From an uncultured Verrucomicrobiales bacterium (GTDB lineage: Bacteria; Verrucomicrobiota; Verrucomicrobiae; Limisphaerales; CANJSG01), in contig CAMLMI010000180.1 of the NCBI GenBank assembly GCA_946480965.1, positions 1 to 8,751 on the forward strand: a DNA stretch of 8,751 bases, given 5' to 3'. Every line of letters begins with the position of its first letter. Position 1 is the first letter of the stretch. The notes below the pieces were generated by a model. The model had not been told where the DNA came from. It did not search any database and saw only the letters and a program-made list of their open reading frames with translations. The translations under genes were made by a program, and so were the position numbers. Below are positions 1,052 to 7,949 of this stretch, piece by piece.

Positions 1052-1074
1052 TTCGATGCCGAAGAAGCGAACAG

Positions 1075-1271
1075 ATGAAAACCACCCTCAAAGACTGGCC
1101 AAGCGTGTATCGGCGGATACGCCGGATGCGCAGCCTCAGCGAGGACGAAAAGGTGCTGTTCGCCCGCTACGCGGCGGCGACGCCGGACGAGCGCTGGCAA
1201 ATGAACGTGAACTATCTCCGCTCGGTCGGCTCCTGGGGGCGCTGCGCGCTGCAAAATCAGATTCCAAGTGA
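1075..1271 (+). pseudogene. Small ORF, probably the frameshifted upstream partner of the nucleotidyltransferase-like gene
   Basis: From ATG 1075, frame 1 encodes about 60 residues that look like real protein: MKTTLKDWPSVYRRIRRM, then SLSEDEKVLFARYAAATPDE, then RWQMNVNYLRS, all predicted helical and charged. Beyond roughly base 1252 the same frame turns into an Arg/Ser-rich shadow of the next gene. If the run of four A at 1253-1256 were five A, the protein would instead end ...RCALQKSDSK with a TGA at 1269-1271, overlapping the GTG (1268) of the next ORF. This suggests a one-base deletion, a sequencing error, or a frameshift site. A weak purine stretch (gaagaag, 1060-1066) precedes the ATG. 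I recognise no named family. From the layout it could be a short antitoxin-like or accessory partner, which is an inference. The frame-3 reading from ATG 1056 looks less protein-like and is probably a shadow. Confidence 0.45.
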
Positions 1272-1645
1272 TCGGCATGACGGCAGCAAACATTCAAGGC
1301 GTGCCCGGGTCCACGATCGGCGTGGATCTGTGGATCGACCTTTTGCCCCGCGACTACATGCGGGCGATGAATGTTGCCGTAAGGCAGGGAGCGGAAATGG
1401 TGCGCAATACCGTCGCCGTCTTGTCCGACCAGACTCTTGTGAACTTCGTCTTCGAAGTGACCGGTTTGCCCGCTTTCGACCGCACCATCGGCAAAGCCAA
1501 GAGGCTTCGCTGGAACGGGGTGATGGTGGATGTGCTGCCGCTGGAGCTGATCGCGAAGAGCAAACGAGCCATTGGACGGCCGAAAGATCTGCTCCACTTG
1601 GAATTGATTCGCCAAGCACAGGCGGTCGGGAGGAAGAACCGATGA
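1268..1645 (+). CDS. Nucleotidyltransferase-like protein (AbiEii/MNT superfamily type), N-terminally short
   Basis: The ORF from GTG 1268 gives 125 residues. Its N-terminus has the nucleotidyltransferase-fold pattern IGMTAANIQGVPGST followed by VDLWIDL. Near the C-terminus, KSKRAIGRPKDLLHL matches the K-x-x-x-GRPKD-LxxL motif common in AbiEii/MNT-type nucleotidyltransferases. The middle contains LVNFVFEVTGLPAFD. Two things are odd. The in-frame sequence upstream (KIRFQ before the VIGM) also fits the fold's first strand, but no helix-encoding start exists in that frame, since a TGA sits at 1208-1210, so the N-terminal helix is missing or split off by a frameshift. The expected D-x-D is read as G18-V19-D20. 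No Shine-Dalgarno precedes GTG 1268 or ATG 1277. It lies between nuoE and nuoF and ends 2 bp from the 3' end of an opposing tRNA gene. It may be an inactive remnant. Family assignment is moderate, and substrate is unknown. Confidence 0.6.
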   Translation: MIGMTAANIQGVPGSTIGVDLWIDLLPRDYMRAMNVAVRQGAEMVRNTVAVLSDQTLVNFVFEVTGLPAFDRTIGKAKRLRWNGVMVDVLPLELIAKSKRAIGRPKDLLHLELIRQAQAVGRKNR

Positions 1646-1647
1646 AG

Positions 1648-1721
1648 TGGTTGCCGGACATGGATTCGAACCATGACAAAGAGATTCAGAATCTCTTGTG
1701 CTACCGTTACACCATCCGGCA
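1648..1721 (-). tRNA. tRNA-Gln (anticodon CUG), antisense to the nuo operon
   Basis: Read on the minus strand, bases 1721 to 1648 fold as a full cloverleaf. The 7-bp acceptor stem TGCCGGA/TCCGGCA is perfectly paired. The D arm is GTGT-AACGGTA-GCAC with one G-U pair. The anticodon arm AGAGA-TTCTGAA-TCTCT has CTG at positions 34-36 and U33. The variable loop is TTGT. The T arm CATGG-TTCGAAT-CCATG is perfectly paired. Position 73 is A, and CCA is encoded at 1650-1648. The anticodon CUG reads CAG (Gln). No mismatches in any stem argue for a functional gene. It is convergent with the nucleotidyltransferase-like ORF and divergent from nuoF, so operon transcripts carry its antisense. No terminator is visible beyond its 3' end. 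Confidence 0.95.
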
Positions 1722-1735
1722 AGGACGGGACGCGG

Positions 1736-1763
1736 AACTTAGAAAATTCCTCCGTGGAGTCAA
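1736..1763 (-). promoter_or_regulatory. Putative sigma70-type promoter for tRNA-Gln
   Basis: On the minus strand a -35 like TTGACT (plus-strand 1763-1758, five of six consensus bases) is followed by a 16-bp spacer and a -10 like TAAGTT (1741-1736, three of six matches including the key first TA and last T). It lies 14 bp upstream of the tRNA 5' end, with a GC-rich discriminator, as expected for a stable-RNA promoter. It sits between the tRNA and nuoF, with its -35 only 15 bp from the nuoF ATG. This is a pattern match only. Confidence 0.5.
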
Positions 1764-1778
1764 GGCGACAGACTGATT

Positions 1779-4937: not shown

Positions 4938-6080
4938 ATGGACTGGACCACTCTACTGCTCATCGTCGCGAAGGCCGTCAGCTTCTTCGTGGTGATGATC
5001 ACCATCGTCGCCTACTCGGTCTTGGCCGAGCGCAAGATCGCGGCCTTCATCCAGGACCGCGTCGGGCCGAACCGCGTCAGCCTCCCGCTGATCGGCAGCA
5101 TCCCCATCATCGGACCCTTCCTGACCCGTGTCGGCATCTGGCAGCCGCTGGTGGACGGCGTGAAAACCTTCCTCAAGGAAGATTTCACCCCGAGCTACGT
5201 CCGAAAGGCCTACTTCTGGCTCGCGCCCGCGATGACCGCAGCGCCCGCCGTCGTGGTCTTCGCCGTGATCCCCTTCGGCTCGATGCTCGGCGGCCAGCAC
5301 ATGGTGATCGCCAACCTGAACGTCGGCATCCTCTTCACCTTCGGCATCGTCTCGCTCGGCGTGTATGGCGTGGTGATGGCCGGCTACGCGTCGAACTCAA
5401 AGTTCCCCCTCCTCGGCGGCATCCGCTCCAGCGCGCAGATGATCTCCTACGAACTGGCGATGGGCCTCTCCGTCGTGCCGCTGATCATGATCGTGGCCAG
5501 TTCGTCGTTGAACGGCGCGGCCGGTTCCGGTTGGGACAAGTATCTCGGCGCGAGCAGCGACCTGAACCTGACCCGCTTCGTCGCTTGGCAGGCGCAGAAC
5601 GGTTGGCTCGTCTTCTGGGCTCCGCTGTCGTTCGTCATCTTTCTCGTGTCGGCCTTCGCGGAAACCAACCGCACGCCGTTCGACCTGCCCGAGTGCGAAA
5701 CCGAGCTCGTCTCCGGCTACCACACGGAATACAGCTCGATGCGTTTCGCCCTCTTCATGATCGGCGAGAACGCCAACATCGTCGCCGCTTCCTGCATGAT
5801 GGTGACGCTGTTCTTCGGCGGCTGGGCCGGGCTGAACATCTACGGCTGGAACCTGACCGAGTTCCTCAACCATCCGGCGGAAACCCTTGCGCTCGGCATC
5901 GGCCACATCGCGCTCTTCACCACGAAGGTGGTGGCGCTGGTCTGCCTCTTCATCTGGGTGCGCTGGATGCTCCCGCGCTTCCGCTACGACCAGCTCATGG
6001 ATCTTGGCTGGCGCCGGTTCATGCCCCTGGCCCTAGCCAACATCGTGATCACCGCCGTGGTGCTGTATTTCCGCTCCTGA
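4938..6080 (+). CDS. nuoH: NADH-quinone oxidoreductase subunit H, membrane (380 aa)
   Basis: This is the ND1-type integral membrane subunit that joins the peripheral arm and forms most of the quinone chamber. About eight hydrophobic segments are visible, the first at residues 5-29. Family signatures are AERKIAAFIQDRVGPNRV (30-47), the loop KEDFTPSYVRKAYFWLAP (80-97), and the acidic quinone-site loop AETNRTPFDLPECETELVSG (241-260) followed by YHTEYSSM. The C-terminal WVRWMLPRFRYDQLMDLGW (340-358) is also typical. ATG 4938 lies 6 bp after the nuoG stop, and only a weak CAGG occurs about 12 bases before it. A very long overlapping open frame through this gene and nuoI is a GC-driven shadow. The gene appears complete and intact, with nuoI 18 bp downstream. 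Confidence 0.97.
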   Translation: MDWTTLLLIVAKAVSFFVVMITIVAYSVLAERKIAAFIQDRVGPNRVSLPLIGSIPIIGPFLTRVGIWQPLVDGVKTFLKEDFTPSYVRKAYFWLAPAMTAAPAVVVFAVIPFGSMLGGQHMVIANLNVGILFTFGIVSLGVYGVVMAGYASNSKFPLLGGIRSSAQMISYELAMGLSVVPLIMIVASSSLNGAAGSGWDKYLGASSDLNLTRFVAWQAQNGWLVFWAPLSFVIFLVSAFAETNRTPFDLPECETELVSGYHTEYSSMRFALFMIGENANIVAASCMMVTLFFGGWAGLNIYGWNLTEFLNHPAETLALGIGHIALFTTKVVALVCLFIWVRWMLPRFRYDQLMDLGWRRFMPLALANIVITAVVLYFRS

Positions 6081-6098
6081 GACCTTCGAGACACCGCC

Positions 6099-6656
6099 AT
6101 GATCGTCGAACGCAAAAAACTGAGTTTCTGGGAACGGCTCTACGTGCCCGCCCTGATCGGCGGCTTCAAGGTCACCTGGAAGCACTTCTTCAACACGGTC
6201 TCCGGCCGGACGAAGGTGACGCAGCAGTATCCGGAAGAGCCGACGAAGGTTCCGGCCAACTACCGTGGCGCGCCCTATCTGGTGAAGGACCAGGAAGGCA
6301 ACACGAAGTGCGTGAGCTGCCAGCTCTGCGAATTCGTCTGCCCGCCCAAGGCGATCAAGATCACTCCGCCCGGCGCGAACGGGCAGCCGGCCGACCGGAA
6401 GAACGCGGAGAAGATGCCGCGCGAGTTCGAGATCAACATGCTCCGGTGCATCTTCTGCGGCTTCTGCCAGGAAGTGTGCCCGGAAGAGGCGATCTTCCTG
6501 CAAAAGGATTTCTCCCTGACCGGCCTCAGCCGCGGGGAAATGATCTACAACAAGGAAAAGCTCCTGGCGCTTGGCGGCGTCCATGCCGGCACCCAGAAGT
6601 GGAAGCACAAGCTGGAGGAAGCCAAGGAGCAGGAAATGTTTCCGGTAAAGGCATGA
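6099..6656 (+). CDS. nuoI: NADH-quinone oxidoreductase subunit I, 2x[4Fe-4S] ferredoxin-like (185 aa)
   Basis: This is the 23-kDa-type (TYKY) subunit. It holds clusters N6a and N6b, which relay electrons from NuoG to N2 near the quinone site. An N-terminal amphipathic part (residues 10-35, FWERLYVPALIGGFKVTWKH) anchors it to the membrane arm. The two ferredoxin motifs are C71-x2-C74-x2-C77-x3-C81 (CVSCQLCEFVCP) and C117-x2-C120-x2-C123-x3-C127 (CIFCGFCQEVCP). The preceding RGAPYLV is a family hallmark (usually RGRHVL-like). A Lys/Glu-rich C-terminal tail ends in FPVKA. The stop TGA (6654-6656) overlaps the ATG of a PEP-CTERM gene at 6653 instead of the usual nuoJ start, which is the notable feature of this junction. 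Confidence 0.97.
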   Translation: MIVERKKLSFWERLYVPALIGGFKVTWKHFFNTVSGRTKVTQQYPEEPTKVPANYRGAPYLVKDQEGNTKCVSCQLCEFVCPPKAIKITPPGANGQPADRKNAEKMPREFEINMLRCIFCGFCQEVCPEEAIFLQKDFSLTGLSRGEMIYNKEKLLALGGVHAGTQKWKHKLEEAKEQEMFPVKA

Positions 6657-7111
6657 AAACGAACCCAAACAACGGAAGGGCGTTGGGGCTGGCAGTGCTG
6701 TTGGCTCCGACTTTGGTTTTGGCCCAAGGAGCCATTTCTCTGCCCGGAGGCTCGTTGCCTTCGCTTCCGACACCAGGCCTCTCGCTCACAAATGTGGGAA
6801 TCACGGCACCGTCCGGCAATCCGGGTTTGTTGTTTCCCCCGCTGACATCGCCGCCGGAAGGCGAATATCTGGTGCTGCGCCCGTGGCACGGTTCCAACGG
6901 TGGAACCGTCCAGCCTGTGGTGATCCACATTCCATCCTCGCGGCCTTTGCCCGAGGCTCCGGAGTTCAGCCCTGAGAACGATGTGGAGATTTTCGGGGTT
7001 TCCCAGCAGACCGTGTTCACTCCTGTTCCGGAGCCTTCGAGCCTGGGACTGCTGGCCGCTTCCGCCGCCGCGTTCGTGTTCAAGCGACGTTTCCGTCCTT
7101 CCACTCGATGA
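6653..7111 (+). CDS. PEP-CTERM sorting-domain protein inserted in the nuo operon (152 aa)
   Basis: This is a small secreted protein. The N-terminus has a signal peptide with a hydrophobic core at residues 11-23 and a likely cleavage after VLA (A24/Q25). The C-terminus is a classic PEP-CTERM signal: VPEPSS (125-130), a hydrophobic stretch GLLAASAAAFVF (132-143), then basic KRRFR (144-148). Such tails are processed by exosortase in Gram-negative bacteria with extracellular matrix systems. The mature part is rich in proline (23 Pro in 152 residues overall), lacks cysteine, and has no recognisable enzymatic domain. The start overlaps the nuoI stop (ATGA, 6653-6656), and the stop overlaps the nuoJ start (ATGA, 7108-7111), so translation is coupled on both sides. 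Codon use (TTG, GTT, ACT) differs from the CTC/CTG-rich nuo genes. A role in complex I is not suggested by its sequence; it looks like a recent passenger. Confidence 0.88.
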   Translation: MKTNPNNGRALGLAVLLAPTLVLAQGAISLPGGSLPSLPTPGLSLTNVGITAPSGNPGLLFPPLTSPPEGEYLVLRPWHGSNGGTVQPVVIHIPSSRPLPEAPEFSPENDVEIFGVSQQTVFTPVPEPSSLGLLAASAAAFVFKRRFRPSTR

Positions 7112-7614
7112 GCCTCTCCGATTTTTTCTTCTACCTGTTCGCCTTCATGACGCTCTTCTGCGGCGTCATGGTGGTGGCGAACCCTTTCAGCCGGAACCCG
7201 GTGACCAGCGCGATCTTCCTCGTGCTGACCATCCTCTCCATGTCCGGCCTCTTCGTCCTGCTGCACGCCTTCTTCCTCGCGGCCGTCCAGGTCATCGTCT
7301 ATGCGGGCGCGGTCATCGTGCTCTTCCTCTTCGTGATCATGCTGCTCGATCTCAAGGAAGAGGAACGCCGCAAGATCAAGGTCGTCAGCGCCGGCATCGG
7401 CACCTTGGCCGTGCTGGCCATCGCCGGGCTCTTCGTGAAGTCGATCCTCGGGCACGACGTCGCCGCGCTGCCGGTTCCTTCGGTCGAGGGTTCGGTCTCC
7501 GCGCTGGGCCAGAACCTCTTCAAGAACTTCCTCCTGCCGTTTGAAATCGTCTCCGTGCTGCTCCTGGTGGCGATGATCGGCGTGATCCTCCTCAGCAAAA
7601 AGGACCTGAAATGA
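7108..7614 (+). CDS. nuoJ: NADH-quinone oxidoreductase subunit J, membrane (168 aa)
   Basis: This is the ND6-type membrane subunit, which links quinone-site movements to the proton pumps. About five hydrophobic helices are seen. They include residues 5-24, the block [18 protein letters not shown] (30-47), and the signature helix [20 protein letters not shown] (58-77) with its conserved Tyr-Ala-Gly, where ND6 homologues have a pi-bulge. The loop [10 protein letters not shown] follows. The last helix (about 143-161) ends in SKKDLK. Its ATG overlaps the stop of the PEP-CTERM gene and its TGA overlaps the nuoK ATG, so both junctions are ATGA. No Shine-Dalgarno precedes the start, so initiation probably depends on coupling with the inserted upstream gene. 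Confidence 0.96.
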
Positions 7615-7949
7615 TCCTCGCCGCCGCCGACCTTCCGAGTCTGCCGCCCGTGGGGTTGCAGCACTATCTCGTGGTCAGCGCGCTCCTCTTCAGCCTCGGG
7701 CTGGTGGGCGTGCTGGTCCGGCGCAACATCCTCGTGATGTATATGTCGCTGGAGCTGATGCTCAACGCCGCGAACCTCGCGCTCGTCTCCTTTTCCCGCT
7801 TCAACAACAACCTCGATGGCCAGGTGATGGTCTTCTTCATCATCACCGTCGCCGCCGCCGAGGTCGCCGTGGGACTGGCCCTCATCGTCGCGCTCTACCG
7901 CAAGCGCCAGACGGCCCATGTCGAGGACCTCACCACGATGAAGCTGTAG
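7611..7949 (+). CDS. nuoK: NADH-quinone oxidoreductase subunit K, membrane (112 aa)
   Basis: This is the ND4L-type three-helix subunit of the proton-translocating arm. The helices lie at about residues 18-36, 40-62 and 70-96. The two membrane glutamates of the proton path are present as E48 in [12 protein letters not shown] and E84 in [11 protein letters not shown]. Their 36-residue separation equals that of E36/E72 in E. coli. The N-terminus is about 12 residues longer than E. coli NuoK. ATG 7611 overlaps the nuoJ stop (ATGA) and has the only convincing Shine-Dalgarno among these genes, AAGGA at 7600-7604, 6 bases before the start. nuoL follows 3 bp after the TAG stop. Confidence 0.97.

Follow-up and report, generated by a model that had tools for sequence, protein, structure and literature searches.

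A gene for a probable PEP-CTERM surface protein between nuoI and nuoJ in a verrucomicrobial complex I operon with accessory genes at two junctions

The window analyzed here is a stretch of 8,751 nucleotides from an uncultured Verrucomicrobiales bacterium, and it has the single-strand gene order nuoD-E-F-G-H-I-J-K-L that is typical of a nuo (complex I) operon. The genes nuoI and nuoJ were identified with family models, while the names of nuoD, E, F, G, H, K, and L are those that we take to apply from matches to relatives. The operon of the window differs from the usual one in having accessory genes at the nuoI-nuoJ and nuoE-nuoF junctions (Table 1). At the first of these a gene for a PEP-CTERM protein lies exactly between nuoI and nuoJ and overlaps both, with an ATGA shared at each side. 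This confirms the arrangement described in the initial annotation of the window.

Table 1. Features of the nuoI-nuoJ and nuoE-nuoF junctions in the window.
Feature	Position	Strand	Basis
nuoI	6099..6656	+	TIGR01971, 117.2 bits, cut-off 113.05
ATGA overlap, nuoI stop and PEP-CTERM gene start	6653..6656	+	sequence
PEP-CTERM protein gene, 152 aa	6653..7111	+	ORF reading; PF07589 and TIGR02595 matches
Signal-peptide-like N-terminus, residues 1-24	6653..6724	+	translation, by eye
PEP-CTERM tail, residues 124-148 (PEP motif, hydrophobic stretch, basic cluster)	7022..7096	+	
ATGA overlap, PEP-CTERM gene stop and nuoJ start	7108..7111	+	sequence
nuoJ	7108..7614	+	PF00499, 124.5 bits, cut-off 33.2
Second accessory stretch, nuoE-nuoF (two small ORFs in different frames, opposite-strand tRNA)	1052..1778		

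The C-terminal tail of the 152-aa protein identifies it as a PEP-CTERM protein. The tail exceeds both curated cut-offs, with 25.5 bits for PF07589 (cut-off 20.7, E 1.3e-5, residues 124-146) and 25.5 bits for TIGR02595 (cut-off 16), and PEP-CTERM is the only family that the protein matches. The start of the protein resembles a Sec signal peptide by eye. The predicted structure has a mean pLDDT of 32.4, with two sequences as input. A search of about 5.8 billion proteins, which detects only relatives sharing short words, gave one match at E values up to 10. This match, P0002, is encoded on another contig and is 96% identical to the window protein, with six substitutions and the same length of 152 aa. 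The existence of a copy with unchanged length supports a real gene at 6653-7111. The codon-position GC signal of the gene is weaker than that of the nuo genes (GC3 of 0.66 versus 0.78-0.93), and this counts against its being a real gene. No transposase was found among the family matches in the insert, which in this respect does not resemble a transposable element or insertion sequence, and there were no terminal repeats of 14 nt or more at its edges in positions 6000-7700. The six substitutions of P0002 all lie within residues 16-51, and there are none in the last 101 residues.

The window protein is absent from the nuo operons of relatives. The comparison covered 80 related nuo loci, the best 80 of 230 confirmed with NuoI as the query. 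Most are from MAGs titled Limisphaerales, Pedosphaera, Verrucomicrobia, or Verrucomicrobia subdivision 3, and we take the few titled otherwise (such as Akkermansia or Proteobacteria) for mislabels. In a tree of concatenated NuoG-NuoL the window pairs with L024, to which it is 80% identical over 1613 columns (SH-aLRT 100). Inspection of the nuoI-nuoJ junctions, to which the initial annotation had pointed, found the protein in none of these best 80 of 230 loci, and in the large gaps there were other genes. A complex I subunit or assembly factor would be conserved in the nuo operons of relatives, and this protein is found in 0 of 80. When it was compared to 19 of the relatives' genomes, only its tail had matches. 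The nuoI-nuoJ junction had been called normally tight. Measured between tblastn ends, which may be off where the N-terminus varies, the gap has a median of 36 nt in the 79 relatives with nuoJ on the locus and is at most 100 nt in 59 of them, so the junction is tight in the majority; on the other hand, the gap is above 100 nt in 20 of the 79 and above 350 nt in eight. Ten loci (L003, L004, L005, L007, L009, L019, L024, L029, L038, and L062) have gaps of 122-171 nt, which by eye contain short palindrome-like repeats rather than genes.

The large nuoI-nuoJ gaps contain different cargo in different relatives. In L036 the insert encodes a protein of 463 aa whose FokI-like match falls below the cut-off, in L044 a cation efflux transporter, and in L016 a protein of 297 aa from a family that three other loci have between nuoF and nuoG. 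L021, L030, and L046 each carry a protein that looks secreted by eye, and L025 has an unknown protein of 144 aa. The insert of L073 encodes a protein of 234 aa whose PEP-CTERM-like tail scores 15.6 bits, below the Pfam cut-off of 20.7. There were no pairwise matches at E 0.01 among the cargo of these eight gaps. In all ten loci with a gap of at least 200 nt the main ORF runs in the direction of the operon and is no more than 36 nt away from either neighbor, with ORF starts taken as the earliest allowed, which favors small 5' distances. The insert label, carried by nine of 80 rows with the window counted, needs at least seven changes on the nuo tree, and six of these are forced by starred branches. 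A single origin of the inserts was therefore rejected, although the label shows some clustering on the tree (24 of 500 shuffles were as low). Given the tree changes and the different cargo, the inserts are best read as separate events.

The insert of L073 was compared to that of the window in its protein and its edges. Among 20 ORFs compared with the window protein, namely L073 and 19 control PEP-CTERM ORFs (20 controls were fetched, of which one yielded no ORF), L073 was the best at 29.6 bits with tails included. With the tails removed it scored 18.5 bits and was tied with one control, and homology between the two proteins was rejected. When the 80 loci were scanned with the motif for further PEP-CTERM ORFs, there were five hits, all rejected by eye as frame artefacts; the scan missed L073, in which the tail is displaced. 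At L073:10480-11305 the 3' end of the insert carries a second copy (87%) of the terminal 53 nt of nuoI. The insert ORF reads through this copy to its stop and ends in NuoI-derived residues, and consequently nuoJ retains a native-looking upstream context. The window junction has neither a copy of the nuoI tail nor edge repeats. Two near-identical homologs of its neighbors vary mostly beside the junction. The NuoI protein P0123 has one internal substitution and three changes at its last residues relative to the window, and the NuoJ protein P0004 has nine differences, five of them in the first seven alignment positions, while a second NuoJ protein, P0003, has one difference and an identical N-terminus. 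The differences in P0123 and P0004, which are proteins only and come from different sources, would fit a junction that was recently remade.

Large gaps are also found at other nuo junctions. By the same measure, gaps above 350 nt are present at D-E in 6 of 49 cases, F-G in 11 of 64, G-H in 3 of 72, H-I in 18 of 80, I-J in 8 of 79, J-K in 3 of 77, and K-L in 4 of 74. Together these seven junctions have 53 large gaps in 495, spread over 31 of the 80 loci; E-F (17 of 50) was excluded from the total because there is a tRNA inside. Two control operons were analyzed with a slightly different script, in which the genes were taken from the ORFs of one reference. Gaps above 350 nt were found at 5 of 114 atp junctions (19 relatives' genomes) and 0 of 304 S10/spc ribosomal-protein junctions (17 relatives' genomes). 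Insertion in nuo is clearly above that in the ribosomal-protein operon (p 4e-12). The excess over atp is uncertain. It is borderline for the 80 loci (p 0.0496), and it is strong (p 4e-6, with 32 of 125) when restricted to the 19 genomes, which were partly chosen for nuo inserts. The remaining 61 loci have 21 large nuo gaps in 370, near the atp rate.

The nuo cargo of relatives includes toxin-antitoxin-like, restriction-type, transposase-like, and other genes. Gaps of at least 180 nt yielded 122 insert ORFs of at least 50 aa, with at most four per gap. The family scan was carried out on 78 of them (co-directional, at least 70 aa, tRNA translations dropped) and on the window protein. Among these 79 proteins there were six matches to DUF2442, five to DUF4160, five to PDDEXK_3/GxxExxY, and four to IS200-like transposases, and single matches to families such as DNA methylases, a cation transporter, ferritin-like/Dps, UPF0175, and AbiEii. 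Family names were paired with loci by sequence clusters and by eye, from a family summary that does not name the matching members. Clusters and family counts indicate that DUF4160/DUF2442 pairs recur between nuoH and nuoI (L004, L009, and L042) and that GxxExxY (PDDEXK_3) genes recur between nuoJ and nuoK (L019, L025, and L038).

The context of the window gene is not the usual one for a PEP-CTERM gene. According to the description of the PEP-CTERM/exosortase (EpsH) system (PMC1569441), PEP-CTERM genes are mostly single-gene operons that follow large intergenic regions. The window gene is like those described there in its PEP motif, hydrophobic stretch, and basic cluster, in a start that by eye is signal-peptide-like, and in having little homology beyond the tail. 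The presence of an exosortase is a further similarity, in this case in the genomes of relatives. The difference is that the window gene has no upstream gap and is part of the nuo operon, with an ATGA overlap with nuoI in place of the stand-alone context. In a rough count of 20 PEP-CTERM genes of relatives, made with a crude ORF caller that also missed the window gene, three had a same-strand ORF within 30 nt upstream and one was flanked on each side by a same-strand ORF no more than 100 nt away. An exosortase above the Pfam cut-off is found in all 19 of the relatives' genomes searched, which are the genomes of 19 of the 80 loci and were partly chosen for nuo inserts. PEP-CTERM matches are found in 18 of the 19, with 1 to 33 in each and none in G003. 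If the genome of the window resembles those of its relatives, the product would probably find its exosortase.

These observations suggest that a lineage-specific accessory surface-protein gene was captured by an insertion-prone nuo operon, and we give this reading a probability of about 0.7. The host would belong to a verrucomicrobial clade in which the nuo operon readily gains genes between those for its subunits, and in the lineage of the window an accessory gene of the exosortase type would have been inserted exactly between nuoI and nuoJ. The direction of the operon and the handing on of ribosomes would allow the insert to be tolerated. Translation of the gene would probably begin by termination-reinitiation at the nuoI stop and end on the nuoJ start, and complex I synthesis would thus be little harmed. 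The product would probably be exported by Sec and reach the envelope or matrix once an exosortase has recognized its PEP-CTERM tail. We naturally infer co-transcription with nuo, and expression of the protein would track complex I as a by-product of location, with no role in respiration. Against capture, no sibling DNA was found in which the nuoI-nuoJ junction is empty, and relatives could also lack the protein because the gene is old and evolves fast. The gene may have a selected function, since it is intact in a second copy that is 96% identical. The insertion of genes into conserved core operon clusters, as presented in PMC8046335, is similar in that accessory genes lie between conserved operon genes. 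Verrucomicrobial nuo differs in that several single junctions of one operon are involved in many members of a clade, and in that the cargo is unrelated and close to both neighbors.

The capture of unrelated genes has also been considered as a property of the whole operon. The nuo operon of the clade could be a capture array, with toxin-antitoxin-like pairs, restriction-type genes, a cation transporter, and an exosortase substrate that have settled among the complex I genes and are each retained because their translation is coupled to that of the following subunit gene. We regard this as doubtful, though if it is true the loss of a cargo reading frame would cost respiration.

An adaptive coupling of the PEP-CTERM gene to complex I is unlikely. 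In this explanation the gene is kept in nuo so that a surface or matrix protein scales with respiratory capacity, and the initial annotation likewise proposed that the location ties its synthesis to the respiratory chain. The exact placement with overlaps on both sides is consistent with this, as is the location in nuo, which is unusual relative to the single-gene operons described in PMC1569441. That L073 also has a PEP-CTERM-like ORF between nuoI and nuoJ would be in favor too, but the tail of this ORF does not reach the Pfam cut-off, and beyond the tail the ORF resembles the window protein no more than background. In addition, the protein is absent from the 80 related loci, unrelated genes are found in the same and other nuo junctions, and at least six other types of cargo occupy nuoI-nuoJ. 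Apart from position there is no support for a dedicated link of respiration to the surface.

Selfish retention of the gene seems improbable as well. Here nuoJ would depend on ribosomes that finish the insert, so that loss of the frame would cost complex I. In the window, nuoJ is not preceded by a Shine-Dalgarno site (its score of +1.2 kcal/mol is the weakest of nine starts, while the start of the PEP-CTERM gene has -3.2 kcal/mol), and a dependence of nuoJ on translation of the PEP-CTERM gene, as first proposed in the initial annotation, is therefore plausible. In all ten loci with gaps of at least 200 nt at this junction, the distance between the end of the insert and the start of nuoJ is -7 to 36 nt, and the L073 ORF crosses the copied nuoI tail into the native nuoJ context. 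However, nuoJ often lacks a Shine-Dalgarno site in relatives without an insert, and the starts of nuoF, G, and H mostly lack one also, so coupling is perhaps not needed. Scores at or below -4.4 kcal/mol were found for 0.13 of nuoF, 0.05 of nuoG, and 0.12 of nuoH starts of relatives in a comparison that has no values for nuoK and nuoL. For nuoJ of relatives the fraction was 0.37 (n=19) versus 0.23 for random internal ATGs, a comparison that allows no firm statement. Tight spacing is common in operons generally, and the small 5' distances are favored by the choice of the earliest allowed starts. Reinitiation in the nuo operon is plausible from these start sites.

An assembly or binning artefact is very improbable: the junction is known from one contig of one assembly, and the contigs listed for P0002 and P0003 have different lengths (3627 and 4460), but the nuo frames on either side are complete and keep their native ends, the overlaps are exact, repeats at the edges are absent, and P0003, with one substitution and the same NuoJ N-terminus, comes from the ena source, as does P0002.

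The operon-wide insert pattern of this clade is more interesting than the single PEP-CTERM gene. Complex I operons are usually regarded as rigid. A clade with repeated, unrelated, co-directional inserts that lie close to both neighbors is a natural test of the tolerance of an operon for foreign genes, and it also tests whether coupling to a core gene keeps inserted genes in place. For PEP-CTERM biology the window gene is an example of a substrate that lacks the customary stand-alone region upstream. In titles and abstract openings of the accessible literature that was searched, mostly outside subscription journals, no description was found of a PEP-CTERM gene in a nuo operon or of repeated inserts in verrucomicrobial nuo operons.

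The stretch between nuoE and nuoF has accessory features of its own. Two small ORFs in different frames are found at positions 1052-1645, and neither has a Pfam match. The first matches ORFs of L037, L005, L004, and L050, and the second matches an ORF that L037 has between nuoE and nuoF (53% over 114 aa, E 3e-34). They are followed by a tRNA-Gln gene (anticodon CTG) on the minus strand at 1648-1721. A minus-strand tRNA-Gln was also found in 41 of 43 related loci scanned, and the two without it, L001 and L015, do not reach nuoE-nuoF. The tRNA-Gln gene at this junction is thus a conserved feature that lies head-on inside the complex I operon.
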